NCBI GenBank assembly: GCA_030295235.1
Contig: AP026149.1
Coordinates: 124,001 to 188,000 of the forward strand
Direction: 5' to 3'
Source: Fistulifera solaris
Taxonomy: Eukaryota > Bacillariophyta > Bacillariophyceae > Naviculales > Stauroneidaceae
Length of the DNA stretch: 64,000 bases
In this document: positions 2,050 through 64,000 of the stretch, one piece after another
Numbering within the stretch: position 1 is the first letter of the stretch
How the letters are laid out: each line of letters starts with the position of its first letter
Position numbers and translations under genes: made by a program
Notes under the pieces: generated by a model
What the model was told of the DNA's origin: nothing
The model's database searches: none
Seen by the model: the letters and a program-made list of their open reading frames with translations, nothing else

Positions 2050-5000
2050 TCACATATCGATCCCTTGGTACATGTAGTAACGAATGGTTTCCTCCATTGA
2101 ATTGTAGAATTCGGATGGGAGACTACCTTTCAAATTGTTTCTCGCAGCATCGCGTAGAAAATGGAATTGATTATCATGCGAGCAAACATCCGCGAATGCT
2201 GCCCAGCCGGCATTCAGTGCGTTCTTTCTTTGCAAAAGGCATCGACCCGAATTCGCTCGTTTCAGCCGCTCACAAATTAAATTCAAAGCGTACAGCGTCG
2301 TGGACTGAATTTCCTTTAGTAGAAACTGCTCATTGGAACACACCGTATCCACTATGTCACCTGCTTTCAAGAACATCAGCGTCTTCAATGCCGCATACGC
2401 CATCAATTGATAGAAATTCAGATATTGCGTGTCCACCGAGTTTATCGCTGCGTCAAATAAAATGGCCAGGCACCTGGGTCTCACAAACGTCTTCATCTGG
2501 TTTGCAAGGTGTTTACCAGGTTTAGCTGCTCGATCAACGATGAAAGAAAAGACCGACTCATTTTGAAGGAATCGCTGGTAATCAATGACTACTTCACCGC
2601 TGTTCACATCGAAAAGCATCCCACACCATGGAAATTTCGTTCCTTCTGTAGTCGATTTGTAGTCCTTACATGAAGGTAAGACATGCGTCTTTTCTTTGTT
2701 GATCTGGACGCCTAGTGTAGGATGGCCTTCTTTCATCTTTTTCAAGAATTTCATGCGTTCCGTAGAATCATGAGTCACAAAGATAAAATCATCGACCATC
2801 CGAGCAAGAAGAGCACGCGATTTAGTCATCACGCCCTCTGAATGAAGCAGCTCCTTCTCGATGCTTCCATAATATAGATTACACAGCATATTTGAAAGTA
2901 CACTCCCTTGGGGGATTCCAATTGTCTGACGGAGATACTGGGGGCCAAATCTGCATCCTGTAGACACTATGTGCTTCGTTAAATGATCATGCAACAGCTT
3001 TATCATTTCATCTCGTCTTGTCATAGAACAGCTGCTCCCGTCGGAAAATACACTGCTCTCATAATCGTTCGACATTTGGGAAAGATAACTAGTGAAAGAG
3101 GAAAGCTCTTCGATAGAAATTACGCGTTTCTTATGCCTCTTGACGAGGCGACCCATACTGTTGAAGGGATGAACAACTCTATATCGCTGAAGCACGTATT
3201 GCTCATCCGCCAGAATATTTTCAAGTAAAGCCATCAGGTAGTTCTGGTCGATGCTGTCGAAGCATTGATTTATATCAACGCTGGCAAAGTAAATGCTTCT
3301 TTTGGAAATCGGCAACATTTTGAAAGCTTTAATGAATTCGGCGTAACGGGGATAAAAGTAATGCAAGCCATCAAGACCAGAGCCAAAGCTGCCTTCGTTC
3401 CGATTGCTTTCGAACCTGAGAATCGCGAATAAATCGCTAAGTATGGTGTTAGTGGGAACCATTCGAGTGGTGGGACGTAACGGATAACCTGGGTTATCTC
3501 GATTTACACGTGTTAGTCGAGAAACATCAAAAACAGGCCAAAGTTTTTCTACTTCTGAAGCATCCAATGGCTCATCATCTTCCTCTACTTCATCCGTGAC
3601 CTTAACGTAAGAGTCATCAGCCAAATGTTGAGCAGTTAGGGTCTGCTTCGTCGCCGACCGTGCCGGTAAAAGCCTTTCGCTTTTGCAAAGTGCAGCAATC
3701 GGTCTAACTCCGGTGGACTTTGGCAAAAGTCGAAGCCTGGAGACGCCCATCTTTCGATCAAGTAAGAGCTCGCCGAGATGCTGTTGATTTAAATACTCGA
3801 ATTGTCGTCTTCGATTTATTAGTTGCTGAAGAGAAAGCGAGCGAAACTTTGACCAGACAGGTTTTCGATAGTAAAGCAGCTTCTTCCCGGAAAACTCAGA
3901 ATCCGTTACGAAAAAGACGGAACGCAAAAGGTTTAGGAGGAAATCATTAAAGACCCAGCGTAGAAAGGATAGCACAAGAAGTCTCAATCGATGGTGATCT
4001 TTGCTCAACAATCGAAGCTCCCTAGTATTGCTGGTATCCTCTTTCTGAAACGATGCCAAAGGAATGAGCCATCGAAAGCTGAGCACTCGAATATTTAGCA
4101 GCAGCGTCTTGTTCGCAAAATGTTCGTGCCTCCGTAGCCCTACGAGTTTCGGAACGAGAACGTCATAGATTTGCGACTCATTATGTTTGCAGCCCCACAC
4201 GTCCCGAATGAACACATGGGATAGTACACTTCGGAGAAAGGATTCGACATTGGTTGAAGCAGAGTAACCCTCTGTCGCAAGTTTGCCCAATTCCTTCTTT
4301 ACCGCTTCGTTGGACTCGATCTGGTTACCCTGCATAATGCGTTCTGTAGGCAGAGGACAATGTCGCTCTAAAAGACGATGGTAATCACATTTCAAACGAT
4401 GACGTAATGATAAATCGGCAGCCACACGAATTGCCCCTGACCACGAGTCCGAATGCGCCAGCAAATTATTCTTCAGCATTCGAACCCAACGTTCATGGCC
4501 CGTTTCTTGTGCTTTCTTGGCGTTAGCGCACAACAAATCGTTAAAGATAGAAAGGAGTATCTGCTCTGGATCGGTCGTTCTGACTAGAACATGATCCTTT
4601 CCAAGGCCCACTTTGGGGATAAAACTGTTTGAATAGAGCAAAGTTCTTCGTTTCGCGCGTGTCCACGTACTAGTTGGATCTAACTCGCTTCGTTTTCGTT
4701 TCTTATCCATTCGATTGATAGGGACTCCTGTAATCTGCCACAAATTACCATGATTTAGTGGCAAAAGATGGATGTCTGTAGCAACAACTGTCGCACGACA
4801 TCATCACCGAGAGCACTGTGTAACTCGGAAAAGCTGTTTTTGCAGTAGTCCACCGAAGGATTGACATGCTGGACTGTCATGGGAAAATACGAACGATGGT
4901 GATTCTGGCTGAACTCTGATACGGTGAATCCTTGACTCAATAAATTGCCGGGTGTTTGTGTTGACTTATTTCTTTTTTGCACAAGTTCCCAGACTACATC

Positions 5001-5423
5001 GTCAACTAGACTCTCTAACGACTGTTGGTTCCGTATTGTAGACGTAGAGAAAGGAATCATCTCGGGAGGCGGTAGAATCAGAAACCCATGTTTTTCTTCG
5101 CAGAAGAACGCTTCATCATTGATTGCTGGTGAATTAGTTACGAAGGATTTTATAAACTCCTTCAAAGTGTAAGCATCGCGCGCCGATATCGCCCGGATTG
5201 TTCGCTTATATTGTTCGCTGAATGATTTGCTTTGCTTCGAACTAAGTACCCTTTCCTTCTCCATCTGATAAATGCTACAGATAAAATCATTTAATGCATT
5301 CTCCATCCCATAAATGCTACAGATGAATAAGTTGGTAATGCATTTATACCCCGGGGAACTCATTATACGGAGTAATTTCCTCACATCTCTAAACGGAAAC
5401 CTCATTTTTGTTTTAATCATCAT
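2050..5423 (-). CDS. TERT: Telomerase reverse transcriptase, one frame break
   Basis: Catalytic subunit of telomerase; extends chromosome ends by copying the telomerase RNA. Downstream part (2050-4764, about 900 residues) holds, in order, a T-motif region, motif 1/2 (RLRLLPKSTGVRPIAA), motif A with catalytic Asp (VDINQCFDSID, near residue 497 of this segment), motif B' (IGIPQGSVLSNMLCN, near 619), motif C (RMVDDFIFV, Asp pair near 658), motif D and the motif E primer grip (WCGMLFD). The upstream part (4755-5423, 222 codons) ends LLLQTSIFCH then stop, and the other frame continues at LNHGNLWQITGVPI. Together these match the conserved TEN-domain end of plant and protist TERTs, so the gene is one unit broken by a single missing T in the run at 4763-4766. 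No intron of usable size fits between them. An imperfect 42-nt tandem duplication lies near the N-terminus (FICSIY repeated). Total about 1,125 residues, normal for TERT. Divergent from the LYR gene. Confidence 0.93.
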
Positions 5424-10223: not shown

Positions 10224-11649
10224 CTAACCTTTAGTCGGACGGCCCTCCAAGCTGATGTTAGCGCTTCTTTGGTTTTTCCCAACTGGTCGTTTCTTCTCAA
10301 TCATACGCTTTGCCAAGTTGCCCCTGCTACCGTCTCTGGGTTGTTGTTCGGGTGACGTGATGGCTTCCCGTCCCTGCGGACGAACAGAAAAGCTAAATCC
10401 TTTAGAGTAGGGCACACGGACTCGTTGCATCGCCAATTCGCCGCCAGTCTTTTTCCCGCCAGCAATCAGGGAAGCCATGTCTTGTTCCGATTGAGCCTTT
10501 TTGGCTGAAGCAGGCTGTTGCGTTTGCTGCTGCTGGCGCCGTACAGTCGCTAGACTACCTTCACCGCGATGAATACGCTCTAGGTCTCTCATGTTTCCCG
10601 ATTTCTGAAAGATCGGACGACTCCATTGTTCGATAAGCTTTTTGAGTAACTGTTTCATTTTTGGCGTTTCAGCATGATGCTTATACAAAACCATGACCGT
10701 TTTACCGAACTCCGAGCGTTTCAAATCATTAGCAGATATTCCATTTTCTCCTGTCATAGTTGCCAAGACTTCTAAAATTCGTTGTCGAACCGTTACATTG
10801 CCAAGTTTGCCGTTGGGCAAGGGCTGGATCCACCTTCTGCAAACTGAGAGAAGTTCCAAATCCAGCAGCATTCGCTGCATATCCAACTTCGTGAGCATAT
10901 CAGTTGTCTCTTGAAGCATCGCTAACTTTTTCACAGCAGGACGCTTTTCAGCGACTGCTTGCTCGTCGTCATCTGCTGCTGCTTCCATGCGGGCCAGAAA
11001 GAGCTTGCACTCATCTTCGCGCTCGGTTTCAGTCTTTTTCGCAACCTTTTTCTTCTTCATACGGTGGACTGCCGCCATAATTGGATTATCAGGCTCTTTT
11101 TCCTCTTCCCGCAAATCTTCTCCCCTCGGACGACCATCCTCATCGTAGCGGATCTTCCTCTTTTTCTTCTTTTGCTCGTAATTATCAGGCCTGTCATCGT
11201 CGAAATGCTGCTCAGCGTATAGCTCTTTCACAGCGTCTGCGTCCTCTCCCGTTGTATCAAGAAAGTCATCATCTTCTCTTGTACGCTGAAACTCACCTGA
11301 GTCGTACGAGTCTCCCGAGTCGTATCCCTTGTCTTCATCGCCCAAAGCAATGGTGCCGCTGGGTTTTTTCTTTGCGCCAGATGATGTGTCCTTGCGTTGT
11401 CGCTTTGCAAGAGCCTCAAGTCGTTGACGTCGCGAAAGAGCGGCGGAAGCTTTCGGCTTCTTATCCTCTTCGTCTTCACTATCGGAATCAAATAAACCTC
11501 CTTCATCGTCACTATCGACATCTTTTTTTCGACGGAGTCCCCTTCTTTCGAGGGGCGGGGGCTTTCTTTTTCGATGTTACGGTGTTCGAGATCAACTCGT
11601 TCGTGTCGTCCGAGTCCGAACCGAAAAGATCATCTTCATCATCAGACAT
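10224..11649 (-). CDS. IWS1: IWS1/Spn1 transcription elongation factor, one frame break near the N-terminus
   Basis: Spn1/IWS1 binds Spt6 and elongating RNA polymerase II. The C-terminal half has the TFIIS N-terminal-like helical domain typical of the family (LLDLELLSVCRRWIQPLPNG, then VTVRQRILEVLATM, GKTVMVLYKHHAETPKMKQL and IEQWSRPIF). The N-terminal half is highly acidic and Ser/Asp-rich followed by basic tracts, as in other IWS1 proteins. The main frame is open from about 11,520 down to 10,224 but has no good ATG of its own. The ATG at 11649 starts MSDDEDDLFGSDSDD in another frame, and the two join if one A of the coding-strand A7 run (11523-11529) is removed. About 470 residues. A 97-codon overlapping frame at 11228-11521 is a by-product of the same break. 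Confidence 0.88.
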
Positions 11650-14127: not shown

Positions 14128-14504
14128 ATCATGTGGAATGACTGTAGCGTGCATTAACTTTGCTCAAAATTAGTTCCCGACAAATGGGTAGATCCTCTAT
14201 TGTTAGCCCTTTATCTTTAACAAAAGCTCCTCGTCGTTTCTTTACAGTAAATTGAACACATGCAGTCTGAAGTTTGAACCCACTCATAAAATGCACCAAA
14301 CCTTTGCTCCCGATCCTTGTGTGGGACTAGGGCGACGACAAAACCTTGTTCTTAATGGCGGAGCAAATTTGTACGGAGTGATTGGTAGTAGCTTTTAGAG
14401 AAAATGTTGGCAGCCCGCAAAGCATTTACTCGGAGTAGTTTTTTTTTAGTTATTATAACATGCAAAATAAGACCCTGTAAGAGCTTTCCTGCCTGTAACT
14501 AGAA
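14128..14504. other. Intergenic region
   Basis: Nothing coding is seen between the lumen-protein stop and the JmjC start. Presumed 3' end and promoter sequence; a T-rich run lies at 14442-14452. Confidence 0.3.
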
Positions 14505-15721
14505 ATGGAGGAAGATTTGGAAGAATCGAAATCGTTGAAACACATCCTGGGCGATGTGTCGGTGGAATCTTTCTTCGAGGATATTTGGCAAAGGCAACTG
14601 CAGTTTTCCGTCCTGAAAACGACAATCCAAATACACCTTATCATCACGCTATTGAAAATGGATGGAATATCATGACAGAACTTTTAGAGCACGGCGGCGA
14701 CAAAGTTTTAGTCTTCGAAAATCAGGGTGTATTACATAATAGAGACGAGTCCGAACCTTTGGCAGCCTCTTTTCTGAAAGGGAATTCACTGGTTTGGAAT
14801 CATGCGGATGTATTGACGTCACCACTGGCTCATCTGTGCGATGACTTGCAAAAGTCATTTCCACATGCCTATGCGAATGTTTATTTAACCCCTCCACAAA
14901 GTCAAACGGCACCACCGCACGCCGATGATCGCGATGTGCTCGTTATTCAATTATATGGTGAGAAAGATTGGACCGTGTATCGAAACATACCGATTGCGTA
15001 CCCATATCCCCATGAGCAAGTCGGTAAAGACGAGAGTTTGCCCGTCCCAAAGCAGAGTGTTGGATGGGCCTTCTTACAACATTACGTTACAGAAAGGCCA
15101 CGTTCTCTATATGCCTCGTGGTTACGTGCACGAAGCGCATTCGGCTCAGTACACCAGCAGCTTACACGCAACCGTAGCGTTTGCGACGCAAGATTGGACT
15201 TGGGCTGGCTTTTGCAGCGGCAAGCAGAAAAGGTGTTTTTCCAAACGAACCCAGAGTACCGCATGGCTGTTCCGCGGACGATTGGAATGCGAGGCCGAAT
15301 AAACAATAAGGATGGGTTCGAGAATTTTATGAGGCAAGCTATAACAGCGCTTCATAATGAAATAACGTTTGACAAGTTGGAGGAGACAATGGTAAAAAAG
15401 TACGCTTTCCACAATGATAGAGCCATGAAACTGAGAAATGCCGTTGCCGTCGACTCCTCATCAGGTAAAGGACCTCTTTCCGTCGGATGGAAAGTCCCAT
15501 TAAGAGTCTCAACTCCGCAGAAATCAAAGGGCGTGGGATTGAATATACGGGAAGACCATTTGTTTTTGGCGGAGCTGTTGCAAACCTTACGAGCCCAGTC
15601 GGAAAAATGCTATGCTCCGTGTGACTATCCGACTCTCATACATCCAAATGTGTGCTGCGATTTTGTCCTCCTGTGTTTCGCCATGCAATGCGTCATCTTG
15701 GGAGCTTTAGCAGTAGCTTGA
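14505..15721 (+). CDS. JmjC-type 2-oxoglutarate oxygenase (MINA/NO66-like), three frame breaks
   Basis: Predicted Fe(II)/2-oxoglutarate-dependent ribosomal-protein histidyl hydroxylase or histone demethylase. The start at 14505 gives MEEDLEESKSLKHILG and VESFFEDIWQRQ, the conserved entry to this family. The core carries the HxD metal pair (PPHADDRD) and the distal His (YMPRGYVHEAHS). The reading frame changes three times: near 14598 (a missing C restores WQRQPAVFR), near 15054-15061 (a missing GT or one extra base; PKQS then VLDGPSYNITLQ), and in the T4 run 15210-15213 (a missing T restores WAGFLQRQ). Without these the protein would be about 405 residues, slightly short of animal homologues. 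All three gaps fall exactly between conserved blocks with no room for introns. Either assembly indels or a recent pseudogene. Confidence 0.8.
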
Positions 15722-16163: not shown

Positions 16164-17260
16164 ATGACAATATCTGCCCCATCGTCGAGCGGGTCCGAGT
16201 TACAGAGACGTGTCACGGCGGCGAAAATGGTTACAACAGATGTCACGCGGCGCATGATTTGTGGGGGTGTTGCCGGTATGATAGCCAAGGTACGCTAATT
16301 GATATACAGGACGGTCTCGTTATCCTTTCGTGGCTCAAAGCTATCTTTACAGACAGTAACAAATCCTTTGGAACGGATCAAAATGTTGTCACAAACTGGA
16401 GAAGGAACCAAAAAGGCCAGCGGGAGACCGTCCATCTTGGGTTTATATCGTGATATATTGCAGAAAGAGGGCGTATTGGGTTTATGGGCCGGAAATGGGG
16501 CCAATCTGTAAGTCATCGACGAGCATGGGTAGCAGCAATAGCTTTTCTCTCGCTCATTTCGCTCCATCGAATCATTCCATTTTTAGGTTACGTGTCTTTC
16601 CTGCCAAGTCGGTGGTGTTTTCATGCAATGACTATTATCGAGCTTTGTTTTCGCGCATCTTACAGAGTGAACAACTTCCGGCCCCTGTCAGCTTTCTGGC
16701 AGGAGGATTGAGTGGAATGACGGCGACTGCTGTGACATATCCCTTGGATTTAGCGCGAGGACGCATTTCGGGAAAACTGGCGGTCGCCAAGGGGGAGAAA
16801 AGTCTATCGCGGTATTGTTCAGACAATTCTATTGACGGTCCGGGAAGAAGGTGTAGCTGCGTTGTTTAAGGGTATAACACCTACGATTCTGGGTGCATTG
16901 CCTTATGAAGGTATCAAATTTGGAATCGTTGGCGCCATGGAGCGTCTCTTTCCGGAGGAAAATTCCTCTGTAAGTACTCCGGTTCGTAAAATGATTTTTG
17001 GTGGGATGGGAGGTGTTATGGCTGGGTTGATTACGTATCCGAATGACACAGTACGACGCCTCTTGCAGCTGCAAGGTAGCCGTGGCAATAGCTCAGCGTA
17101 TGCTGGCTACTGGGATTGTGTGAGACAAACGTATAGGACTCATGGCATCTCTCGTTTCTACCATGGCTTGACGATAAACACAATTCGCATGGCTCCCAAC
17201 ACTGCTCTGCAGTTCTATTTTTATTCCCTACTCAAGCAGTGGTCGGATGGTCTCGTATAG
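16164..17260 (+). CDS. Mitochondrial carrier family protein (SLC25), three exons
   Basis: Six-helix inner-membrane transporter; the sequence is closest in feel to the CoA/adenine-nucleotide branch (SLC25A16/A42), but the substrate is not certain. All three carrier signatures Px[DE]xx[KR] are present: TNPLERIKM, TYPLDLARGR and TYPNDTVRRL. Exons are 16164-16289, 16353-16507 and 16587-17260; introns of 63 nt (16290-16352) and 79 nt (16508-16586, GTAAGT...TTTTAG) splice precisely between TM segments. One frame break lies in the G5 run 16791-16795: removing a G turns the out-of-frame tail into KGRKVYRGIVQTILLTVREEG, the expected matrix helix before repeat 2 ends. The spliced, corrected product is about 317 residues, the normal family size. 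Confidence 0.88.
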
Positions 17261-17472
17261 GGTATGGCTTTCGGCCGATGTTTGGACTCTCCAGCATTCT
17301 TAATCCGTGATAGATAAACATACTTATGGGCTCGTCAATTCGCTGCTGCGAGTGCCACAACGAAGTGTGATCTAAATCTCTGCTGCTAACCTTTCTTGGC
17401 TCCCGAGATCAATAACATGAAAACAAACCACTATTCATATCAGTTATATAACAGCAGGACCAATTAATTGAC

Positions 17473-43975: not shown

Positions 43976-44066
43976 CGCATCGTGATTTGATCCGTAAATT
44001 TCACTTGCCAATGATTGCTGGCGGTGGTTCCATAGCGCCCATTCAGAAGCTACCCACCGCGCCTCG

Positions 44067-46457: not shown

Positions 46458-49093
46458 ATGGAGGCTGTCGATGAAAAGCTATCGACGGCGGAAGTCTGCA
46501 AGCGCATTCAAACCGCTCTCGACAACATGGGCCGCGCCTTGAAATGCCCCGTCTGTCTATCGACACTACGAGACAATCCTGTCGTCTTGTCGTCTTGCGT
46601 CCATGCATTCTGTCAAAGCTGCTTGACTCGCTCTTTTGAATCGTCGACGAAAGAAACTTGCTGTCCTATTTGCAAAGTTCCTTGTCATCGACGACGCAGC
46701 GTGTCGGAAGCACCTTTTCTCGGAAAGCTGGCGCATGCGTACCAGCGCACTCTCCGCCATTTTGGTTTGACACCCGTGAAATATACAACCTCCTTACCTT
46801 TGCTGACGCAACTCGGCCCCGAAGAAAATGATAGTCAACAGGAGGACGATGTAGCCATGGTGCATCGCCACTTTCAAGTCAGCAAGACGTTTGAACTGGC
46901 CATGCGTCAAGACAAACTGGCCTCACGCAATACCATACTGCAACAACATCAATCCGTCGTGGAAGCCAACGGTAAAGTTCTCCTTGAAACGATTGTAAAA
47001 CGTAGGAATGTCGACGTGAAGAAACCTACGGTTCACTTTCGAGTGAATCCAACAACTTTGGCGCACTCTGAGACCGCGATTGAACTAAGAATAGAGGACA
47101 AGGACGAACTGATTTCGACAGAGGAACACGTCAGCACAAACAACAGCGCTGACCGCAGCGTTAATTTATCTGAGTCGGCGCGTGCAATTTCGTCAGCCGA
47201 AGAAGCAAAGGAGGACGATGGCACGAACGCGTTTACAAGGCCTTGCTTGAAGACACCTTCATCAGGGAGGACAAAAGCTGACAATACGAAGCTCGGCTTC
47301 CAAAATATCAGTGCAATTTCCGTCACTGTCTCCAATTGCGCCAAACCAAAGTCCGATGCTGAAGCGAAACGTTGACGAAACGAACGAAATAGTCGATGAG
47401 AGTTCGAGTATGTTAGCGGAGGGAATCTCTGAGCAACAAATCATCAAAGTCTCTTCACAAGGGGCTTGTTTGGAAAGCGACAACGACGTACCCACTCCTA
47501 TTGAAGAATCTTCCCCACGGATAGAGGCAGTTGACGGGGAAAGTAAGACGCCTCTTCATAAACCGAAGACCGCGACGAAGACCTTGAATTACAAGGCAAA
47601 GGCACGCCTTCAGACACCCGAAACGGATAAATCATCGGATTCTATCTTCTCAGATTCCAAAGACCTCATCACCACATCTTTCAAAGTTGGAGATATAATT
47701 TCTGTTAAGCCCAGAACTTGGCCCGGTATCAACAAACAAGGCGGTATAGCGAAAGTTGCCAAAGTCAACGATGACAACTCATACGACGTGTCCTATGTTC
47801 TAGGTGGCAAAGAAAAAGGGTAGATGCTGTGTTCTGCTTGATCCATGATGATTCTTTACCTGATCGGAAAAAGGACACCATACCTGTTTGCTTGCTTCAA
47901 CAGCTTGCCTCGGAGGGGTTCGACATACAGGGCGATCAAGGAGTAGAGCAACCCATAATCGAGCCAGCAAGTGATAAACCGCGCACCGTGGCAGACAAAA
48001 AGCGCGAGCGCGTCGTGATAAAGCGTAAAACAGTTGCAGATAAAAAAGAACGGCAGAAACGACCCAAGCTAGAGAAGAGAAGTGAAGCCTCAAATTCACA
48101 GGCGCCTTCCCTTGACAGTTTACTGGGGTTGTCTTCACTTGAACTGACTTTTTTGGCGGATTCTCTTTATCGATGTCGTCTTGACGCGTCGATAAAGAGA
48201 AAAAGAAATAGTTGTACTATCTTCTGGTTTACCCGAGTACGATTCTGCGCAATTGAAGGAATTGGAAAAACGATCGAAGAAATGGGACGGTAAGTGATAT
48301 TGATATACCGAAGATATGCATTTCTTTTTGTTGCTAATACTTTCATTTAGTTGCAGTAAAGGTATCCAGTATCTTCAACGCGAAGCGAGTCACTCTCTGT
48401 CTTACACCTGCTGCTGTCGGCAGTAAAGGTGGCAGTGCGATTGCTCACCGTCGAACTATGAAAGGAATGCAATGCGCTGTTGCGGGCATTCCAATTGTGA
48501 GTTGCGAATGGATTCATCAATGCCTTTCGGCATCAAAAATTATACCTCCTTTATCGTCGATGTATATCCGGGCGCTTCCAGCAACTGGAAGCTCATCTAG
48601 AAATAATGGTGTTGCTTTGCTAGCCGCATACCAACAGCAGTTCCAAGAGGCACCCGCGCCCTTGCAAAAGTGCCACGTTTTCCTGTCAGGAATAAGTGTC
48701 GAAAAGCAGAAAGATACAATTGTGATTCTCCGAGAAGCAGGAGCTATTGTTGTTACAAGCACTCCAGCGCTCCTGAAGTTGCTAGGCAATGAACAAGAAA
48801 AAGCACCAGCTAAGATTGTTGTAGTTTGCGATGACGTCCTCCCACGGAATCTTGCGACGAGCCTCCCGTCGCTTCAACTCGCCGGTCACGTCTTAATCGT
48901 CAATTCATCATGGGTTTTCGACAGCATCTGCGCCGGGCAAAAACTTCCCTCGGTGGACTATCCCCCCTCACACCACTCTGCTAGACTATTTTGGGAGCGT
49001 CAAAGCGACTGGGGAGTGGCGAGCAACGAACAAGAGAGCAAAGGGCACAGGATGGACCACCTTGAGACCTTGAGCCTTGAGACCTTGACTTGA
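46458..49093 (+). CDS. BRCA1-like RING-BRCT protein, one intron and frame breaks
   Basis: Predicted DNA-damage ubiquitin ligase. The N-terminus has a helix then a C3HC4 RING finger (CPVCLSTL, SSCVHAFCQSC, CCPICKVP), the layout of BRCA1/BARD1. A middle Tudor/Agenet-like module (FKVGDIISVKPRTWPGIN, GGIAKVAKVNDDNSYDVSYV) follows. The C-terminus has BRCT-type blocks: EIVVLSSGLPEYDSAQL, VTLCLTPAAVG, GIPIVSCEWIHQCLSASKII, then KCHVFLSGIS and HVLIVNSSWVFDSICAGQ, consistent with tandem BRCTs. A 61-nt intron (48290-48350, GTAAGT...TTTAG) splits the first BRCT and splices KKWD to VAVKVSS. Frame changes occur near 47370, at the A run 47813-47817, and near 48200. Corrected length about 855 residues. RING plus Tudor plus BRCT makes a genome-maintenance role likely. 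Confidence 0.82.
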
Positions 49094-49548: not shown

Positions 49549-50972
49549 ATGCTTGACAATATGAGTGCAAACTACTGTAGTTATCCAAAAGGTTGGAAGA
49601 AAATTGCTTGGATCACGAATGTGTGCTTGCTCGTTTGCATCACACTGTCTTCGGGTGCTGCCTTTGTCACACGCAATTCGAACGACCCAGTTACAAAATA
49701 CCGATCACCAAAAATGCTCTTCACGCCGACAATACGTTCAAAGTTTCGGCCGAAACATTCGATGATTTGAATTCATTGTCACCAGAAGAACGAACGGTGG
49801 TATCGGTGGTTCGTTCTTGCGGACCGTCGGTTGGATATGTCACGTCGGTCCTACCCAGCAATCAAGCTCGCAACACATCACGCACCGTTTTAAATGGCGT
49901 TCCGAGCGGCTTCCCACTTGGATCGGGATCCTGTTTCATCGTCGACACGACATTCGCCGGAAATGCCACATACTTGGCAACCAATTATCACGTGATTGAA
50001 CAGGCCTACGAGTTGCAGACGATGGACGAATCGGGTCGTAGAATACGAAACGAGATAACCGGAAATCTTACCGCACTTTTACCCAAGAGCAATGAATTGT
50101 GCGAATTTATCAACACTACGGTTCTGTCTTCCCTGTTCCAACAATCTCGTGCTACCGTAATACCCGAAATTTACGTTCGCGTGAACAGCGCCACCCGGTT
50201 TCAGAAATGCCGAATTGTCGGCGTCGATCCAAAGTTTGATTTAGCAGTGCTTTGTTTGGAAGGAAACAGTTCCTCGGATTCGTTTCAGGCACTCAAATTT
50301 GGTTCGTCCACCGATCTGGTGGTCGGTCAAGGTCTCATTGCGATTGGCAACCCCTTCGGACTCGAGAGTACGGTGACGACGGGTGTCGTGTCGGCGTTGG
50401 GTCGAGAAGTCACGACCGCTCCCCGCCGGCGAGGATTGGTTTCGGTACCCAGTATTCCCTTGCGCAACTGCATTCAAACCGATTGTGCGATTAATCCGGG
50501 AAACTCGGGTGGTCCCTTACTCAATCGGCGGGGCCAAGTCGTGGGCATCAATTCCGCCATTCTCTCCACTTCCGGATCCAGTGCCGGTATTGGATTTGCT
50601 GTCCCCTCCGATGCCATCCAAGAAGAAATTCGTAACATTATTCGCCAGGATTCCCGTCGCTTTTCGCAACGCGGTATGGTCACATTGGGTGTTGCCATTG
50701 TGAAGCAGTCTGCGTGGTCGGACAAGAATTGGATTGCGAAGATTGCTCCGAATTCTCCGGCTGCCATCGCCGGAATGAAGCCATTGCAAATCAACTCAAC
50801 CAGTGGATGTATCGAAGCCGGTGAAGCGATTGTGGCGATCGGTAGTAAGCCTGTCTCGAACGTTCCGGAATTGCAAAAGGAATTATCGCGTTGTGTGCCG
50901 GGTGAACAACTATCGATCACCTTGGAAGATTTCATGACACAAGAAAGACGCGTTGTTTATTTGACGCTATAA
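49549..50972 (+). CDS. Plastid-targeted HtrA/Deg-type serine protease
   Basis: ATP-independent serine protease that degrades damaged proteins. The N-terminus (49549, second ATG 49561) has a hydrophobic signal (IAWITNVCLLVCITLSSGAA) followed by FVTR, the Ala-Phe plastid context. The protease domain shows the catalytic triad: His in ATNYHVIEQ, Asp in DPKFDLAVLC and Ser in INPGNSGGPLLN, plus GIGFAVPSDAI. A PDZ-like domain ends the protein (IAKIAPNSPAAIAGM, VAIGSKPVSNVPELQKEL). One frame break: the signal segment and the mature part join in the A5 run 49710-49714 if one A is added. Total about 474 residues. Location as thylakoid lumen or stroma is inferred only from the signal. Confidence 0.88.
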
Positions 50973-51305: not shown

Positions 51306-53159
51306 ATGAAGTCATTACTGATAATAACATCCCTACTAGCAATAACTGTGGATGCTTTTACTGCCACCACTGGTAGTAAAACGTTCGCGAGACGATCCGT
51401 TGGTGTGCAAGCATCGACCCTTTCTTCGGAATCATCATCCTCTACGTATCAGGCTCCGCTTTCCGAAATTACCAAACGCCGTAATTTGGCCATCATCAGT
51501 CATCCCGATTCAGGAAAAACGACCATGACCGAGAAGTTGTTATTGTACGGAGGAGCCTTGCAGCAAGCGGGGGCGGTCCGACACAAAGCCGAACAACGGG
51601 CGACGCAATCGGATTTCTTGGCCATGGAACAAGAACGTGGTATCAGTATTAGCAGTACGGTGCTCAATTTTGATTATCAAGATTACACCATCCGTTTACT
51701 AGATACACCCGGGCATCAAGATTTTTCCGAAGATACGTAAGTCCGCACTCAAATTCGTTTTTGGTGTGTTGAGGGGGTCGCTCTTGTCCTCTCATTTTGT
51801 TTTTGTTTTTGTTTTTGCTTTTGCGACAGCTACCGCGCGCTCGCGGCCACCGATCAGGCACTCATGTTAATGGATGCCGCGAAAGGTCTGGAACCACAAA
51901 CTCGCAAATTATTTGAAGTATGTCAGCTCCGCTCGATTCCGTTGTTTACGTTTGTCAATAAGATGGATCGACCCGCGTTGTCACCCTACGATATTATGGA
52001 TCAAATCGAACAAGAGTTTGGTCTCGAACCGCATCCTATTTTGTGGCCGATTGGGGATGGCGATCGTTTCAAGGGTGTTTTGGATCGAACGACGAATACC
52101 GTGCATTTGTATCAGAAAGCGGAGAAACGAGGAGCCAAAGCGGAAGCGACCGAAGTGGCACTGGACGACGAGCAATTAAAGGACTTGATCGGAGACAGCG
52201 AATTGTACGATAAACTGATGGAAGACGCGGAATTGTTGAACGAAATGATTCCTCCGTTAGACATGGAACGAGTCATGATTGGCAAGCAGAGTCCTTTGTT
52301 TTTTGGATCGGCCATGACAAATTTTGGGGTGCAGCTTTTTCTCGATCATTTCTGCCGGATGGGTACAGAACCCCTTGGTCGGGAAACGTCGAAAGATATT
52401 TTGATTACTCCAGACTATGGGGAATTCACCGGATTTGTATTCAAAACACAAGCCAATCTCGATCCGAAACACCGAGATCGTTTAGCCTACGTTCGTATTG
52501 TTTCGGGCAAGTACGAAAAAAGGCATGAAAGTGAATCATTCGCGTTCGAAGCGCCAATACAATTTAGCCCAAGCCCAGGCTTTGTTTGGTTCGGACCGGA
52601 CGTCAGTGGACGAAGCTTTTCCGGGTGATGTAATTGGCATTAATAATCCGGGAAGTTTTGCCATCGGTGACACCCTTTACTCCGGAAACTCGCCCATTGC
52701 TTTTCCTGGTATCCCATCCTTTTCGCCGGAAAAGTTTGCGTACATTCGTGCACCCAACCCATCGGATTACAAGTCCTTCAAAAGGGCATTGACCAGTTGC
52801 TGGCCGAAGGGGCGGTGCAAGCCTTGCGCCAACGAAATGACGAAAATGGTCCTCTATTGCTAGCGGCGGTGGGTCAACTACAATTTGAAGTAGTACAAGC
52901 TCGGTTGCTGAGTGAGTACAAAGTTGATTCGAAAATGGAACCACTGGGTTATTCTTTGGCGCGATGGGTAGATGGAGGCTGGGAAGCTGTTGAAAAGGCC
53001 GACAAAGATGGGAAATTATTTGGAATTATGATCGTCCAAGATCAGTGGAAAAGACCAGTTCTTTTGTTCCGAAATGATTGGAAGGCTGCCAGTCTGGCGG
53101 AAGAAGAAAAGTATCTTCAATTGAAGCCTTGGTCGGCCCCTCCAGCTATGGATGACTAA
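51306..53159 (+). CDS. prfC: Plastid peptide chain release factor 3 (RF3), two exons
   Basis: GTPase that recycles RF1/RF2 from bacterial-type ribosomes. The signal peptide [17 protein letters not shown] is followed by FTATTG, the Ala-Phe plastid-targeting context, so the protein should act on plastid ribosomes. GTP-binding motifs are clear: [12 protein letters not shown] (G1), [10 protein letters not shown] (G2), [16 protein letters not shown] (G3) and NKMDR (G4). A 93-nt intron (51737-51829, GTAAGT...GCGACAG) splits the DTY codon block. Two frame changes occur: at the A6 run 52516-52521 (one extra A; VSGKYEK then [16 protein letters not shown]) and the G3 run 52784-52786 (one missing [14 protein letters not shown]). 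The C-terminus has the RF3 hallmark [13 protein letters not shown]. Corrected length about 585 residues; bacterial RF3 is about 530. Confidence 0.93.
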
Positions 53160-54384: not shown

Positions 54385-56094
54385 CTACTGCTTGATCATC
54401 GACAAATAAGCTTGATCTTCACGTTCCTGCTGGTCCATTTTGATTTCTTCCAATTGTTGTTGTAACATGGACTGCATGTCACTGGACACCACCAGTCCCT
54501 CGGTATCGACATACAGCAAAGACGTGACGATGCTGGTATACAGTTCCGGATACTCGTATGCCACCAAACTCGAGAAGGATGGGGGCTTCTTCGGTTGCGC
54601 CGGCTGTTCTTCCCATTCTCGACGTTGACTTTGCACCATGCGCAAAATTCCTTGCATAAAACAGATCGATTGATCACGCACCGGATTCCAAATATTCGGA
54701 TCCACGCCTTTTTCGGCTTGCATTTCCTGTTCCACGACGACCGCATGACTCAATTTCACCATGACACCGACGGCGGAACCCGCGCGATGCCACGTCTCGG
54801 GTGTACTTTGACTCGTGGGCATTTGAGAAAGTAGCCAGTGGGCAGCACTGTTGGTCTGGAGCATGGCATGCAACCAGGATACACACGCCATGGTCAAGTC
54901 AGAAATCAACAATGCGGAATTTGGTAGTAGGACACGTTCCATGAGATCGAGTACCGTCGCCATCACTTCGCGAACCGGTCCCCCGTACGAAGACGACTCT
55001 GCTTGCGTCCAAAATCCGTAACGTACAGCATCTCTACGAGAATGATTCCAAAATTCCACCAGTGTAGCGAGACACACGGATAACCATTCTTGTATGAGCC
55101 TGGTTTTGTGCCTTTTGGAAAAAGGATATGGCTCCGTTGTTTCCTCTTCATTGTTATTGTTTCCTTTTCGGTTGTTCGATGATTCGGGATTAATCAATCG
55201 AAGGACACCATTCCCTCGCCGAATAAGCCAAAGAGCAGCTCGTCGAAATAGTTGCAAAAGTTCCGTTTTGAACGACCACACATCCTCGTGCTCGAGGAAC
55301 AAACAAAGGACTTTCATTCCGGCCATGGATAGTTCCAAATTGTGCGTCTGTGAAATACACGTCTCCCGAATGCGTTGCAACAATAATTCCCCACGATGAC
55401 TTCTCGGGCGGTGCGCTGGTTCTATCGCAAGTGTTGGAGACCACAAGGGGTTCTCGAATGCCTCTTGCTTCAAATGCACGTATTCTCCTCGCCGACGAAT
55501 GCGACGGGAGATCCTGGATGTTTCCTTTTTCATCGTGGAAAAAAGAAGCCGACACGCTTGTGGTGACAAATGCAAGATCGAATACAAGGCTTTTAAATGA
55601 TCGGCCTGCCATACCGGCAACGTGTACACGAAATCGAGGCAATCGCCCACAACATTGACAACGGAAATGGGTCGATTCCGTGCCACAATTTGCAACAAGA
55701 GGAATGTGAAGGGTGTTTGTCGATCTACCAGTAATATATGACGTGCCAGTGCCATGCCACAGGATTCTTTCGGCACCGGAGTGGGCGTTTGCGGAAGAAG
55801 AAGGGTCGTCGCCGGAGGGGTCGGTGCGACGATGGTGTGAGGTATGCGTTGTTGTTGTTGTGGTTGTTGCTGCTGCTTGTTTTGTGCCCGCACCAAATTC
55901 GCTTCATGCTGACTCCTTCGTAATTGATCACGCAAATGACGTTCGGTTTGTTGCAACTGTCGTTCGACAGTTTGTATCTGATGTTGACATTCGGCTTCCG
56001 CCACGGCCAGTGCAGCTTGTAATTCAAAGTTTTCTTCCGCTTGTTGCGCCAGCTTTTGTTCCAGAAATGTTATTCTCTCTTGTTCGTTGTTCAT
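54385..56094 (-). CDS. Coiled-coil and helical-repeat protein, possibly ATRIP-like
   Basis: Intact 569-residue frame (ATG 56094). The first 75 residues are a strong coiled coil (FLEQKLAQQAEENFELQAAL and following heptads), then a Gln/Pro-rich linker (QQQQPQQQQ), then an alpha-solenoid rich in Leu and Trp (LARHILLVDRQTPFTFLLLQ, MALWHAMLQ-type segments). The order coiled coil, linker, helical repeats and size match ATR-interacting proteins, and the gene neighbours a BRCA1-like gene by about 5 kb, but I see no conserved catalytic or binding motif to prove it. The frame is unbroken. Confidence 0.55.
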   Translation of the reverse strand: MNNEQERITFLEQKLAQQAEENFELQAALAVAEAECQHQIQTVERQLQQTERHLRDQLRRSQHEANLVRAQNKQQQQPQQQQRIPHTIVAPTPPATTLLLPQTPTPVPKESCGMALARHILLVDRQTPFTFLLLQIVARNRPISVVNVVGDCLDFVYTLPVWQADHLKALYSILHLSPQACRLLFSTMKKETSRISRRIRRRGEYVHLKQEAFENPLWSPTLAIEPAHRPRSHRGELLLQRIRETCISQTHNLELSMAGMKVLCLFLEHEDVWSFKTELLQLFRRAALWLIRRGNGVLRLINPESSNNRKGNNNNEEETTEPYPFSKRHKTRLIQEWLSVCLATLVEFWNHSRRDAVRYGFWTQAESSSYGGPVREVMATVLDLMERVLLPNSALLISDLTMACVSWLHAMLQTNSAAHWLLSQMPTSQSTPETWHRAGSAVGVMVKLSHAVVVEQEMQAEKGVDPNIWNPVRDQSICFMQGILRMVQSQRREWEEQPAQPKKPPSFSSLVAYEYPELYTSIVTSLLYVDTEGLVVSSDMQSMLQQQLEEIKMDQQEREDQAYLSMIKQ

Positions 56095-56526
56095 TGTTTG
56101 TGTTTAATTTACAGCAAGATGAGTACGGGTATGTTAGCAATAGATACAATAATCCCTGATAATTGCTTAACGATCATTTGTTGATTGTGGCGTTTTTGAA
56201 GGGAAAATCAAGGAGCAAGTCGCGTAACCGTACGTTCGTCGACCGTTCAACGACACGCATGGACGATGTTTGACAGGGAAGGACGTTAAAATTCTGCCTC
56301 CCAGTACAAGATTCTACGTAGCGTCCACGACGTGGCAGAATTTTAACGCCGTTTCCAGAAAGAATGGCTTCATTCTTATTCATTTGTTATAGAGCCTTTC
56401 TTGGTCTCCGAATCCATCGAAGCTAGCGTCCTTTTATTTATTCCTAATTATTTCCGAACCCTTCTATGTTGCTGGATTAGCGACTGCTGCAGCATTATTC
56501 ATTCCACGGTATATTATTCGCAGAGA
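56095..56526. promoter_or_regulatory. Divergent promoter with a 15-bp inverted repeat
   Basis: The region separates two divergent starts. CGTTAAAATTCTGCC at 56284-56298 is perfectly complementary to GGCAGAATTTTAACG at 56334-56348, with a 35-nt spacer. An upstream in-frame ATG-like start at 56401 could extend the next gene, but its residues are not a convincing signal. Confidence 0.5.
56284..56348. repeat. Perfect 15-bp inverted repeat, 35-nt spacer
   Basis: The arms at 56284-56298 and 56334-56348 pair without mismatch. The spacer holds TACGTAG and CCACGACG. It could be a binding site for a dimeric regulator or a stem in the leader RNA. Confidence 0.8.
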
Positions 56527-58916: not shown

Positions 58917-59667
58917 TCAGGATTGCTTCTTGAGCTTGTCATCATCTTGATTTTCAAGATGAGTCGTCGACTGCAAACTCACATTGTACAAAACACCATA
59001 ATACGCGGCTAGCCCTGATGCTACGTGCCACACAATGTGTGCTATCCAAATACGGGGGTAGGTCTCACACCACAGGTTCTCCATTTCCCAAAAGATGCGT
59101 GCAAACAGAATTGTCGCCACGCACTGGTTGCGTAGCTTTGTATCACCCTGCTTCATGGTATACGCCAATATGGTATCCAGCACTACCATACTCGTAAATC
59201 CGTGCACAAAGAGTTCATAGGAACCGACAACAATGTACAAAAGTACGATGCCGACATTGATAATCACCATGCATGACCGCCAGAGGGCAGAACGCTTTCG
59301 TGACCACGGATGCAATCCTAACTTCCACCACAACGCTGTTCCGATGGAGCCCATCATCGGTCCTTCATCCAGTAACTGCATGGAGCGACGCATCGTTCCG
59401 TGAAACAGAAACGAACCGATACCAATCACCCCCAACCAACCTGCCAAAGCTCGAAGAATCCACAATGGTTTCTTCGTAGTACGAAAGCAACCGATAGGCC
59501 AGAAAGATATACCAGAGACTACTGAGGGCATTGTAACACTCGGCTAAATATACGGTAGTGCGGTAATGTGGTTCACAGAATTGGTGCACGGCATCAACGG
59601 GTCCCCACACGCCGGTCACGTTGTGTACGCGTTTGTTGATTTGTACGAAAGCAAGCGTGCTTTGCAT
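58917..59667 (-). CDS. Alkaline ceramidase
   Basis: Multi-pass membrane hydrolase that splits ceramide into sphingosine and fatty acid in the ER/Golgi. The ATG at 59667 is followed by GVWGPVDAVHQFCEPHYRT and AECYNALSSLWYIFLAYRLL, the family N-terminus. The catalytic signature SFLFHGTMRRSMQLLDEGPM supplies the Ser/His/Asp region and IAHIVWHVASG the C-terminal His pair. One frame break joins SYYEE to PLWILRALAGWLGVIG in the three-base run at 59469-59471 (one extra A on the coding strand). Corrected length about 250 residues, close to the family's 260-280. C-terminus is polar (LENQDDDKLKKQS). Confidence 0.88.
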
Positions 59668-59874
59668 ATTTTTTTAATGAAAGAGGGTGGTTGGTCAAGA
59701 AGAATGAAGAGTAGCACCGACGATATAATGAGATTCTCGAAAGGATTTTCAAGCGAATGAAGCGCAAAATAGCCAGCATCCAGACCTGATACTGATAGTC
59801 AGAAGTACTACCACTACGATTGAAACACGTTAGCGGCATCTGTAATAGTTGTACAGTGTTGATTACCGGATGAA

Positions 59875-61117
59875 ATGGCGCGAACATCAACGACGCCGAT
59901 CACAAAAAGTGACCATGTCGCACCATTCGCCTTGAGATTTGAGAAAAAGACCCACTCACATACATTTTTTTTCTCGAAGACCACTCATTACTTCTGATCA
60001 CGATGACAAAGGTAGACATAGCGATGCAAACGATAATGATATTCATCAAAGGATTCAAAAATGGATCGACGAGCAACAATGGGACGAGCTGGAAGCTTTC
60101 GTTCACGCGAATCCTTGCATCACTCACGATGCAACCTTTCCAAACGGCTGGACGTTGTTGAATTGCGTGACCTTTACGGCCAATACGCCCCTTGAGTTGA
60201 TTCGCACGGTGGCTGCTACTAATCCTATCGCCATTGGGATACCCGACCAACGATTCCAAGATTTACCCGTCCATTTTGTCTGTCGCAATTTACAGACGTC
60301 GGCGGCCAAATTGCACGTCTTACTGCAACACTGTTCGTCCAACTGGTTGTTGCATCGCAATGAATTTGGAGGAACACCGTTGCATTCGGCGTGCAATCAC
60401 AATGCTCGTTTGGAAGCTTTGCAAGCTCTCGTGCATGCGACGGACGCACAGATCCTCCGTGTTCGGACCTTTCAAGGACATCATTGTGTCACGACGTTGT
60501 GGCAGTCGTACAGCTCCACCATTCAAGGACATTTATGTGTCGCGAATTTGTTACTGGTAGACAACAAACAAGACGTGGGAGAGCTACCTCGTCATTTTCA
60601 ATTGTTCTGGGACAAATGCCAATATCTTGCACTGTCGTCCTACGTCGCCTCCTCTTCACCGCACGACCTGTTACACGCACTGTTACGGTGCAACGTACCG
60701 ATTCATTTGTTCAAAGTTGCCGCGCGACTAGTAAAGGATGAAGCATTTTTGACACCCGATAAAGATGGATTGTTACCGTTGCATTGGGTTTTACAGAATC
60801 GACCTTATCCTCACCTTCATGAAGCGGATGCTATTCAAGCATTGCTGCATCACGGCGAGGCAGCGATACCCGCTGCACAAGAATTGCCACTGATAATGGC
60901 GATTCGTCACAAAATTCCGTGGTCGCGAGGAACTCAATGGGTCTGGGAGGCACATCCCGTTGCCATTCAATCTCGGTCAATGGAGGGATGGTATCCTTTT
61001 TATTGGCAGCTGTCGTGGGAGGTAAACCACTGCCGTCTTTGGAAACCATTTTTCAATTGCTACGGGCACAACCGGATCTTCTTTTAACTTCTTCTACCAC
61101 CAGTGATGGCGGCTGAA
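59875..61117 (+). CDS. Diatom-type degenerate ankyrin-repeat protein
   Basis: The helical-repeat core (WTLLNCVTFTANTPLELIRT, FGGTPLHSACNHNARLEALQ, KDGLLPLHWVLQNRP) is typical of the large diatom ankyrin families. The last repeat, PFLLAAVVGGKPLPSLETIF followed by LLRAQPDLLL, is recovered only if one T is added in the T5 run 60997-61001; otherwise a shortened frame ends at 61087. The N-terminus from an ATG at 59875 also needs one change, probably in the T8 run near 59964-59972. Corrected length about 415 residues. Function unknown; such proteins are usually adaptor-like. Confidence 0.65.
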
Positions 61118-61278
61118 CGCGCGTTGATGTTTACAGAAAGTGCCAGCTCTGATTAACTCTTCTACGTTTCTATTTCGTTGGTGCGTTCAATACATTCATA
61201 AAAATAATCATGTTTTGTTATGCAGGAACACTACCGCAATACAGTTATAGAATCAAACCCATCTGGGTTTCTCACAGT

Positions 61279-62348
61279 TTAGTACGAATCATCGTTTCGA
61301 CGACGAGAAGGCATGTCCTCATCGTCTTCGTCGTCGCCAATTTTATATGCCGCACCACTGGACATGTCAACTTCATCGTAACTGTCCTCATCGTTATCAT
61401 CTTTGTGAGGAGAACTGGTAGGCTCATCTTGTTTCTCCATGGCATCTGCTGAATCGTTCTGATTCTTGCTGTTCGGGCCTCCTCCTTCTTCCGATCGTGT
61501 CGCCATGTATTCACGAAAGTTATCAGCAAACTGAAAGACAGTCACGAGGAATGCGATCCATGCTCCAAAGTAAATATTCGAAATCGTCGCCCCGGGTGTA
61601 TTCCCAAACGTAATGTATCCCACACCAAAGCACCACAACACGAGCAGAAGCGTCGAAATGGCAAATTCGACTGTCAAAAACAAAGTGAAGCATCGGGACG
61701 CCACCAAGAAGAAGAGGGCAATAATGGTACTGATGCAACCCAAACCGACCGCCCAACGCGTCCGACGACAGTATTCACTATCATCAAAGGCCGCCAATTG
61801 ACACGTTGAAGTATCCCGCAAGACGCGTGCCGCGGAAGACATGACAATAATGGATGCCGCCGCCAAGGCCAACCACCGCGCATTGGTCCGTGAAGGAATC
61901 AGCGAGAGTTTGGCAAATTCTTGTGCCGCACTGGCGACAATAAAGAGAACGGCCGCCAAAGCCAACCAAGTAAAGAAGTAGAGATTCGCATTGATAATAA
62001 AGAGACCACCCCTTGTGCCGCCACGACGGCAATACCGTGATCAATGTTCATGATGACCGGCCATGCGACACACCATACTACCAAAAGGAAGAGTCCCGCC
62101 AACACTTCGATCGATCGTCCGACAAAATGAGGACGCGCGAAGAGATACGCAGCCGACGCGAGAAAGGCGACCAGCATGCTCATACACGACGCGGCGACGA
62201 CCCAATTTTCTTTCGTGTTCCGACCCTCTTCGGTCGTTGATGTCATGGCCGCTAGACAAACCGCCGAAAAGACAAAGAGAGCAATCCAAGCCGGGAATCG
62301 TCGGGCTTGATGAATATCGGTATTGACGTCTACTGTTAAGACGGACAT
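61279..62348 (-). CDS. Multi-pass (about eight TM) membrane protein with acidic tail
   Basis: The ATG at 62348 begins MSVLTVDVNTDIHQARRF. Hydrophobic segments include FPAWIALFVFSAVCLAAM, WVVAASCMSMLVAFLASA, SIEVLAGLFLLVVWCVAW, LYFFTWLALAAVLFIVASA, WLALAAASIIVMSSAARV, TIIALFFLVASRCFTLFL and ISTLLLVLWCFGVGYITFG, so about eight membrane helices, arranged as two similar halves. The cytoplasmic C-terminus is acidic and Ser-rich (DEDSYDEVDMSSGAAY). Halves join in the C4 run 62009-62012 if one base is added. Length about 355 residues. This two-fold layout is known in fungal MARVEL-like and diatom-specific membrane families; transport function is not proven. Confidence 0.65.
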
Positions 62349-63112
62349 GATGATGTAAGTAAGTTGTTTCGGAAGATTCAATGGGAGTTTCCAGCAGATC
62401 AAACAAGCTTTGTGATAGATGAATGAACTGAAAGATGAGTATTGTGTTCGCAAACAAAGTAAAAGGAATGATGGAATAGTGATGTAGGAGAACTTCAAAG
62501 AAATCTCGCGTGTTCGCAAAGCGCGAGAAACGAAATGGGAAACGTGACGACACGATGGTCCAGCCGGCTTGCTCCAACCGCCGAATTGTGACAACCAAAC
62601 TCCATTGAAAGTGATAAAGTAAATTACGTGCGATTTATTTTGATATTTTCTACTTGTTCCGAATGGAGTAAGTGGTACTGATTTTGTTTTTTTAGAATGC
62701 TGTAGATCGAAATATTTGTACAAGAAAGTAGAAATGGCTCACGCGCTCATTCACAACGGAGAGATGCAACGGAAACGCTTGGATCGATTTTCTGCCGCCC
62801 TCCTGCGGAGTCGTGGGGAGCAAGAACGAGGTGTGAAACAAAACAACGGAGCACAATAACCCTGTTGTTCGAGAAATGTTCAAGAGATCATTGCAATTCT
62901 TCACGAGTAGCATTCTTAACAAGAGCCAGCTGAACCGTAAGGAAGCAAGTTTGTTTGTAGGCGAACGACGGTTGAGAAATACAACACCTGTTCTTTTTTC
63001 ATTGTCACTATTATCACATCACACTTCAATTCTTTTTCCGAATATCCTCCATCACAAATCAATCAGAACTTAGTAGCATCCTTTCGGCAGAAAGTCTAGT
63101 AGTACACAAAGA
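62349..63112. other. Divergent intergenic region, 764 bp
   Basis: Nothing coding is supported between 62348 (minus start) and 63113 (plus start), although minus-strand frames at 62041-62598 and 62692-62922 remain open. It should contain both promoters. No repeat or palindrome stands out. Confidence 0.3.
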
Positions 63113-64000
63113 ATGAGTTCTGATCCCGAGCTGCAAGAGCCTTTGATAGAACCGGTCGTCGTTGTAGAAGACACCAGCGTCTTGGTCGAAGAAACAGGGG
63201 CAGAAGCTTCGTTTGAAACAAATGAAAATGATGGTGTCGGACACGAACAACCGGCCGTGTACCGGGATGTCCTGTTTGCCATTCTATTTTATGTACAAGT
63301 TGTCCTCATGTTGGGAACGGCAGTGTGGTCCTTCCACTATTTGTGGAAACAAGACGAACCGGACACGATGGCACCCACCTTTGCCCCCACAGCGGCTCCG
63401 ATCCCCCAAAGGATGGAAGAACAAGCCGAGTGGATGTTTCCTTCGGACAAGGAAGAACGCCAAATTGTCGCGTGGACATTGGGATTTCTCTTTTGTCCTT
63501 AGCGTGTGCCATGGTATCGGTTGCACTCGTTTTGGTAGCCCTGCAACACTACAGCCACACAGCGGTCCAAATTTCGTTTGGGATCGCTCCCATCAGTAGT
63601 GTGTTGGTGGCAATTCTCATGACCTTTGTCAATCCGCACGCGTGTGCCCCATTTTGGATCACGGCCGTTCTGGTGGCGTTGTTATCGGCAATTCATTATT
63701 TTGTAGTACGTCAGTACATTCCCTTTACCGCCGCCAATCTCCAAATCGGATTGCAAGCCATTGATGCCACCAAGTCCTTGTTTGTTTATGCGGCATTGTT
63801 GCAAGTTATGACGATGGTGTATTGGATTGTTGCCGCGACGGCCTTGAGTGGTATAGTCGTCTATTATCACAATCAAGACGTTCCGTGCGGAGACGATGAT
63901 TCGGCGGAGCCGTGTCACAATTCCATACCCCTATGGATGGCCTTACTGTGGTTACTGGCCGTGTATTGGACCCAATCGGTGGTACAAAATGTGATTCGTG
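63113..64000 (+). CDS. Choline-transporter-like protein (CTL/SLC44), truncated by window end
   Basis: The ATG at 63113 opens an acidic cytoplasmic N-terminus (MSSDPELQEPLIEPVVVVEE-like), a first TM helix (VLFAILFYVQVVLMLGTAVW), an extracellular Pro/Thr stretch, then after one frame break (GGG at 63481-63483; one G missing) further helices: SLLSLACAMVSVALVLVAL, ISSVLVAILMTFVNPHAC, FWITAVLVALLSAIHYFV and ending at the window edge in AVYWTQSVVQNVIR, the characteristic CTL segment. The CTL family exports or imports choline and related lipids. Cut off at 64000, so the C-terminal half is missing. Confidence 0.75.

Follow-up and report, generated by a model that had tools for sequence, protein, structure and literature searches.

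One-base frame breaks in genes of the nanopore assembly of the diatom Fistulifera solaris as very probable run-length errors of the consensus

Genes in a 64-kb stretch of the genome of the allodiploid diatom Fistulifera solaris are interrupted by frame breaks that are, with a probability of roughly 95%, consensus errors of the nanopore assembly and not features of the organism's DNA. This stretch, referred to here as the window, corresponds to bases 124001-188000 of contig 31 (C31) of assembly Fsolaris_ONT_v03, which comprises 51.7 Mb in 61 contigs; a literature search by assembly accession returned the annotation paper only. In nanopore sequencing the number of identical bases in a run is read from the duration of a flat signal, and runs of about five bases or more are often one base off, either short or long. 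If such an error were retained in the consensus, any gene crossing the error site would appear frame-shifted. We infer that the nuclear breaks arose by this same process, among them the six that both copies of a gene share.

Frame breaks in the window

Frames were followed with a six-frame model that scores codon use and the substitution pattern against the homoeolog; the homoeolog also served to check the resulting switches, some of which were examined by eye as well. Over 48,643 nt of coding sequence in the window the model placed 44 switches, 24 with an extra base and 20 with a missing base, the place or sign being uncertain for those at 7287, 16507, 41874, 48292, 59457 and 61998 (Table 1). 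Runs of at least five bases were found within 20 nt of 18 of the 44 (background 12.4%, p = 1.9e-6). About 40 one-base breaks had been proposed in the initial annotation and these proved to be real; three breaks beyond the 44 of the model (two in the JmjC gene, one in the HtrA-like gene) were seen by eye in a three-frame alignment. A switch was found no more than about 35 nt from each of the breaks that it had located in TERT (4763-4766), IWS1 (11523-11529), JmjC (~14598), the carrier (16791-16795), RF3 (52516-52521 and 52784-52786) and the ankyrin gene (60997-61001), and its count of about ten for anoctamin agrees with that of the model. The breaks at 15210-15213 (JmjC) and 49710-49714 (HtrA) were missed by the model but recovered by eye, with contig 30 (C30) open there; the model therefore undercounts breaks. 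Eight breaks had been claimed in the BEACH gene and four in the USP gene; both genes are indeed broken, but the model counts six in each, and its non-coding gaps may hide some in the former. The CTL break put at 63481-63483 is present, although its gap lies about 10 nt away at 63491. One stretch described as clean, 54385-56094, is clean in both copies. Another, 44067-45539, borders on a switch at 44103 and probably belongs to the USP gene as its upstream part.

Table 1. Genes of the window and the frame breaks placed in them (window coordinates)
Gene	Positions	Strand	Frame breaks
TERT gene	2171..5238	-	1 switch near 4767, common to homoeolog; telomerase domains matched
IWS1 (name from the initial annotation only)	10225..11647	-	1 switch near 11523; homoeolog open
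JmjC gene	14500..15605	+	1 model switch near 14589 (shared); by eye 15055 and 15213, homoeolog open there
Mitochondrial-carrier gene	16342..17252	+	2 switches, near 16507 (weak) and 16798
BEACH/neurobeachin-like gene	18691..26839	-	6 switches
Unnamed gene	27878..28697	+	1 switch near 28415; homoeolog open
Duc1-domain gene	28813..33840	-	6 switches; one near 29362 common to homoeolog
Anoctamin gene	34893..39355	+	10 switches; one near 39134 common to homoeolog
Ubiquitin-specific protease (USP) gene, DUSP and UCH domains	39466..45561	-	6 switches
Unnamed gene	47564..49085	+	3 switches, near 47817, 48196 and 48292 (last weak)
HtrA-like protease gene	49581..50943	+	1 break near 49710 by eye; homoeolog open
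Peptide chain release factor 3 (RF3) gene	51412..53154	+	2 opposite-sign switches near 52552 and 52773, both shared with homoeolog
Window-end genes	58921..64000	.	switches near 59457 (weak), 60986, 61998 (weak) and 63491
Unbroken comparison gene	54386..56101	-	open in both homoeologs

Comparison with the homoeologous region

The homoeologous region on C30 is 80-91% identical to the window and keeps an open frame at 32 of the 44 window breaks. At 33 of the 44 switches a one-base gap separates the copies and there is no nearby switch on C30; in the BEACH/neurobeachin-like gene a single 4302-nt frame of the homoeolog spans four of the six window switches. C30 is itself broken by 26 switches, 19 of them missing-base, and thus differs in sign from the window (p = 0.03), and the rate per coding kb is 0.90 in the window vs 0.48 in C30 (p = 0.012). 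A simple model of under-calling predicts neither this contrast in sign nor the higher rate of the window. Runs of at least five bases lay near 4 of the 26 C30 switches, which is no enrichment over the background of 11.4% (p = 0.34). Breaks were also present at loci of five other chromosome pairs. The initial annotation had seen neither the breaks in both homoeologs, six of them shared, nor those on further chromosome pairs.

Alignment of the two copies gave 65 one-base vs 4 two-base gaps in coding DNA and 128 vs 66 in non-coding DNA (Fisher p = 1.1e-6). By mechanical placement 26 of the 65 coding one-base gaps fall in runs of at least five, which hold only 2.1% of coding bases, 31 in runs of at least four and 31 in runs of 1-2. 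By this placement the earlier statement that the breaks are mostly in homopolymers is upheld only in part; some of the 31 gaps placed in runs of 1-2 are probably misplaced owing to a substitution beside a run. Gaps in runs of at least five were found at 1.04 per aligned kb outside genes vs 0.54 inside.

Plastid copies as an internal control

The strongest control for reading the breaks as length errors is the comparison of plastid copies. The plastid genome is present more than once in the assembly, and three copy pairs showed 0, 0 and 2 substitutions vs 20, 5 and 67 gaps in 9,843, 9,733 and 8,219 columns, so that copies of the same molecule differ in run length and hardly otherwise. Runs of at least five bases contained 90 of the 92 gaps. 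The dependence on length is also clear from the A/T runs, of which 0/1,430 differed between copies at a length of 3-4, 47/203 at five and 42/96 when longer; inspection of the sequence flanking the runs of five (37 shortened vs 36 kept) revealed no clear motif. In one copy a photosystem II gene has an open frame of 436 aa, in another it is broken in two at profile position 208, and the tRNA-Thr gene is 72 nt in one and 71 nt in the other. Neither change is explicable by translation. With this tRNA gene and the non-coding nuclear gaps, RNA genes and non-coding DNA are affected as well. A profile search for nuclear rRNA with RF00002 gave one place only, below the cut-off, on plastid contig C60, and an Rfam search of the 64-kb window at gathering scores gave no match.

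Shared breaks and alternative explanations

The weakest part of the case is the six of the 44 window breaks that occur in both homoeologs without a gap between them (two in RF3 and one each in TERT, JmjC, anoctamin and the Duc1-domain gene); a further shared break was seen on C11/C12 in a gene of the AAA family. Some of them sit at runs of three or four, a length at which the plastid A/T runs never differed. Probably an identical error occurred in each copy at the same local sequence; another possible origin is the correction of one copy with reads of the other. It is very unlikely that they are true DNA bypassed by tolerated ribosomal slippage, with RF3 itself carrying two compensating shifts; if they were genuine, they would be of far greater interest.

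Real decay of one subgenome, in which the C31 copy is becoming pseudogenes after hybridisation via one-base slippage in runs, would accord with the denser breaks of the window, and such slippage is also common as a natural mutation. It is nevertheless an extremely improbable account of coding sequence in which two-, four- and five-base gaps are almost missing (7 vs 65 one-base; 97 vs 128 in non-coding DNA) and in which only 1 of 16,149 window codons is an in-frame stop, segment ends aside, though the model itself penalises stops. The ratio of divergence at codon positions 1-2 to that at position 3 was 0.07-0.36 in eight broken gene regions and 0.32-0.47 in three unbroken ones, and constraint on the proteins is kept on both sides of the breaks. 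C30 is broken as well and the plastid copies differ in the same manner. Gap lengths, stops and constraint led to the rejection of decay; the broken genes do not have the character of pseudogenes.

Ribosomal frameshifting is widespread in Euplotes, mainly at stop codons, and F. solaris is alike in that many genes would need a change of frame for a full reading. Programmed or tolerated frameshifting of this kind, with correct DNA and ribosomes that slip at runs, would account for breaks found in both homoeologs, including the opposite-sign pair in the strongly conserved RF3, and for the constraint on either side of them. It is scarcely credible for the window as a whole, since the sister gene is open at most breaks, extra and missing bases are mixed, no single motif is common to the sites, and none of the shared ones has, on inspection by eye, the form of a canonical slippery heptamer. 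Differences in length also extend, unlike in Euplotes, to non-coding DNA, as well as to the tRNA gene and the plastid copies. The preference of the initial annotation for a DNA-level length error over ribosomal frameshifting is thus supported by the plastid copies, the split photosystem II gene, the tRNA length and the open homoeolog.

Missed short introns or alternative splicing are the least credible source of the frame changes: introns do occur in diatom genes, RF3 is interrupted between adjacent profile positions by 87 nt of non-coding sequence and a short intron-like stretch stands beside some switches on C23/C24, but there is little room at the breaks, and introns were rejected for those of the window on the near-continuous profile matches (340-408 then 410-521 in RF3, 203-351 then 354-418 in anoctamin) and the one-base gaps against C30.

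Comparison with other assemblies and implications

The same kind of error is known from published nanopore drafts (PMC12007338, PMC8767320). The long-read drafts with gene-fragmenting indels treated in PMC12007338 are alike in their one-base, run-linked changes, in the many apparently broken genes and in the involvement of both coding and non-coding DNA. F. solaris differs from the drafts described there in that its nuclear genome is allodiploid, so that internal controls are at hand in the sister copy and in the duplicate plastid contigs, and in that extra-base breaks in the window are as frequent as missing-base ones. The nanopore assembly of Monocercomonoides exilis is likewise a eukaryotic long-read assembly with leftover frameshifts related to run length; three residual frameshifts are reported for it after short-read polishing (PMC8767320), compared with a density of about 0.5-0.9 per coding kb in F. 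solaris.

At such a density automatic annotation would be expected to leave many long genes truncated, split or with false introns, and counts of genes lost from one subgenome or the other could come out too high. Proteins predicted from the assembly would often be cut short. For users of the reference, the duplicate plastid contigs and the homoeolog pairs provide a simple internal check that does not depend on the reads.

Frame breaks in the window

The one-base changes of reading frame within conserved genes of the window are almost certainly artefacts of assembly, of a recognised type. The initial annotation, which listed about 40 such breaks, was confirmed, and its proposal of a length error in the DNA was supported by the plastid copies, the length of a tRNA gene, the open frames of the homoeologous contig C30 and the lengths of gaps. 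Similar cases have been described in bacterial drafts (PMC12007338) and in a protist (PMC8767320), and in the available parts of these sources they resemble the window breaks in the kind of artefact.

Frame switches were located with a Viterbi model of six reading frames plus a non-coding state, scored on codon use and on the substitution pattern against C30; the window had 44 in its 48,643 coding nt and C30 had 26 in 53,703. The model overlooks close switch pairs and weak ends; three further window breaks were found by eye, in the JmjC gene near 15055 and 15213 and in the HtrA gene near 49710, and C30 was open across all three. At the 44 switches C30 stayed open over 60 nt or more to either side in 32 cases, had a nearby switch or end in 11 and was non-coding in one. 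Inspection of gaps showed that 33 of the 44 have a one-base gap, and one a seven-base gap, in places where C30 does not switch within 60 nt; four others combine a gap with a C30 switch. Twelve C30 switches were unmatched in the window and three lay outside the aligned blocks. In-frame stops, which are supporting evidence only as the frame model penalises them, numbered one in 16,149 codons for the window and three in 17,852 for C30 (twelve codons at each segment end excluded).

It is also clear from profile searches that the pieces belong together, since the matches continue from piece to piece in different frames. Four successive pieces of release factor 3 (RF3) matched TIGR00503 at 3-96, 96-326, 340-408 and 410-521. 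Five of the ten anoctamin pieces matched PF04547 (1-141, 159-198, 203-351, 354-418 and 426-460), the other five matching nothing or only weakly, and the UCH domain was found in two parts, 1-109 and 128-254, separated by three pieces without a match. Domains of TERT, JmjC, carrier, USP, BEACH and HtrA were recovered under the names first given to them. The stretch 44067-45539, previously described as clean, adjoins a switch at 44103 and is probably part of the USP gene.

Comparison with the homoeologous contig

Fistulifera solaris is described in the available part of PMC5935921 as an allopolyploid with 42 homoeologous chromosome pairs. The genome examined comprised 61 contigs (51,715,745 bases), which tend to occur in pairs (C7/C8, C9/C10, C11/C12, C15/C16, C17/C18, C23/C24 and C30/C31 in an AAA-family search with the best 20 candidates scored). 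The window, C31:124001-188000, is taken to come from the nanopore assembly Fsolaris_ONT_v03, which is among the F. solaris data references in the available part of a paper annotating 49 diatom genomes. Its partner C30 aligned in eleven blocks, each of at least 1,400 columns and 80-91% identity, with the last block inverted; window positions 58969-64000 align in reverse and the remainder forward, which marks an inversion between the homoeologs. C30 carried extra sequence at window 11784-12043 and 49005-49215, with long frames lacking a window counterpart there: one frame gives a cytochrome P450 (L014:1713-3239) and the other a protein whose VWD/mucin-like matches are weak (L018:2110-3939), both on stretches of C30. 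Parts of window ~6640-8000 also matched C14:60654-61561 (minus strand) at 75-99% identity.

Coding gaps between window and C30 comprised 65 of one base, 4 of two and 24 of three, and non-coding gaps 128, 66 and 37, respectively; the coding excess of one-base over two-base gaps was significant (Fisher p=1.1e-6). This pattern is unlike evolution: real frame-breaking indels have evidently been purged and the one-base gaps have another source. Runs of at least five held 26 of the 65 one-base coding gaps and make up 2.1% of coding bases; another 31 were assigned to runs of one or two, in some cases probably wrongly. Gaps in runs of at least five were not rarer in non-coding than in coding DNA: aligned non-coding DNA had 1.04 per kb and aligned coding DNA 0.54. 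Divergence at codon positions 1-2, taken as a ratio to that at position 3, was 0.07 for RF3, 0.15 for anoctamin, 0.18 for the gene initially named IWS1, 0.20 for HtrA, 0.28 each for BEACH, the Duc1 gene and USP, and 0.36 for TERT; three unbroken genes gave 0.32, 0.33 and 0.47.

Plastid copies

A search for photosystem reaction-centre genes showed the plastid to be redundantly assembled, on C60 (232,645 bases) and C61 (116,223 bases), and C60 itself holds repeated plastid stretches. Three pairs were drawn from five 10-kb stretches (L026-L030).

Differences between plastid copies within the assembly
Pair	Columns	Substitutions	Gaps
1	9,843	0	20
2	9,733	0	5
3	8,219	2	67

In the summed tables none of 1,430 A/T runs of 3-4 differed in length; 47 of 203 A/T runs of five did, as did 42 of 96 that were longer. 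Among G/C runs of at least three, 2 of 184 differed. A photosystem II gene (PF00421), which we take to be psbB, was a single 436-aa frame in L026, matching 1-420 of 500, and two frames in L027, matching 1-208 and 208-341. The L026 copy may also carry an error, as its frame ends before the profile does. A reaction-centre frame was 352 aa in one copy versus 298 in the other, and a tRNA-Thr gene 72 nt versus 71 nt. Since a single organelle genome within one assembly is being compared with itself, sequencing and assembly are the best explanation for such differences, and that in tRNA-Thr is inexplicable by translation. In a search for 5.8S rRNA (RF00002; 39 of 2601 first-look candidates scored) the sole place was plastid and below cut-off (L041, C60:127979-128129), and nuclear rDNA may thus be absent from the assembly.

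Shared breaks and other chromosome pairs

Six window breaks (4767, 14589, 29362, 39134, 52552 and 52773) were shared with C30 on gap inspection, with no gap that changes the frame. Homoeolog identity within 60 nt of these six was 88-98%; at the other 38 it averaged 88.9%. They could reflect the same error made in the same context, or one copy's reads correcting the other. Several features are unexplained by the simplest under-calling model. Some shared breaks are apparently at runs of three or four, a size at which plastid A/T runs showed no difference, and C30 switches were not enriched near runs of at least five (4 of 26). Switch direction differed (24 extra-base and 20 missing-base in the window versus 7 and 19 in C30, p=0.03), as though correction had differed between the two contigs, and the switch rate was higher in the window than in C30 (p=0.012).

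Frame breaks extend beyond C31. Ten 5-kb loci at AAA-family hits on five other contig pairs contained 22 switches over 33,167 coding nt, a biased rate of ~0.66 per kb as the loci were chosen where open frames already looked unequal; one locus had none. On C23/C24 no fewer than three of these switches adjoin an intron-like stretch and are possibly spurious. Both partners of the C11/C12 pair share one break, in an AAA-family gene that is presumably FtsH-like.
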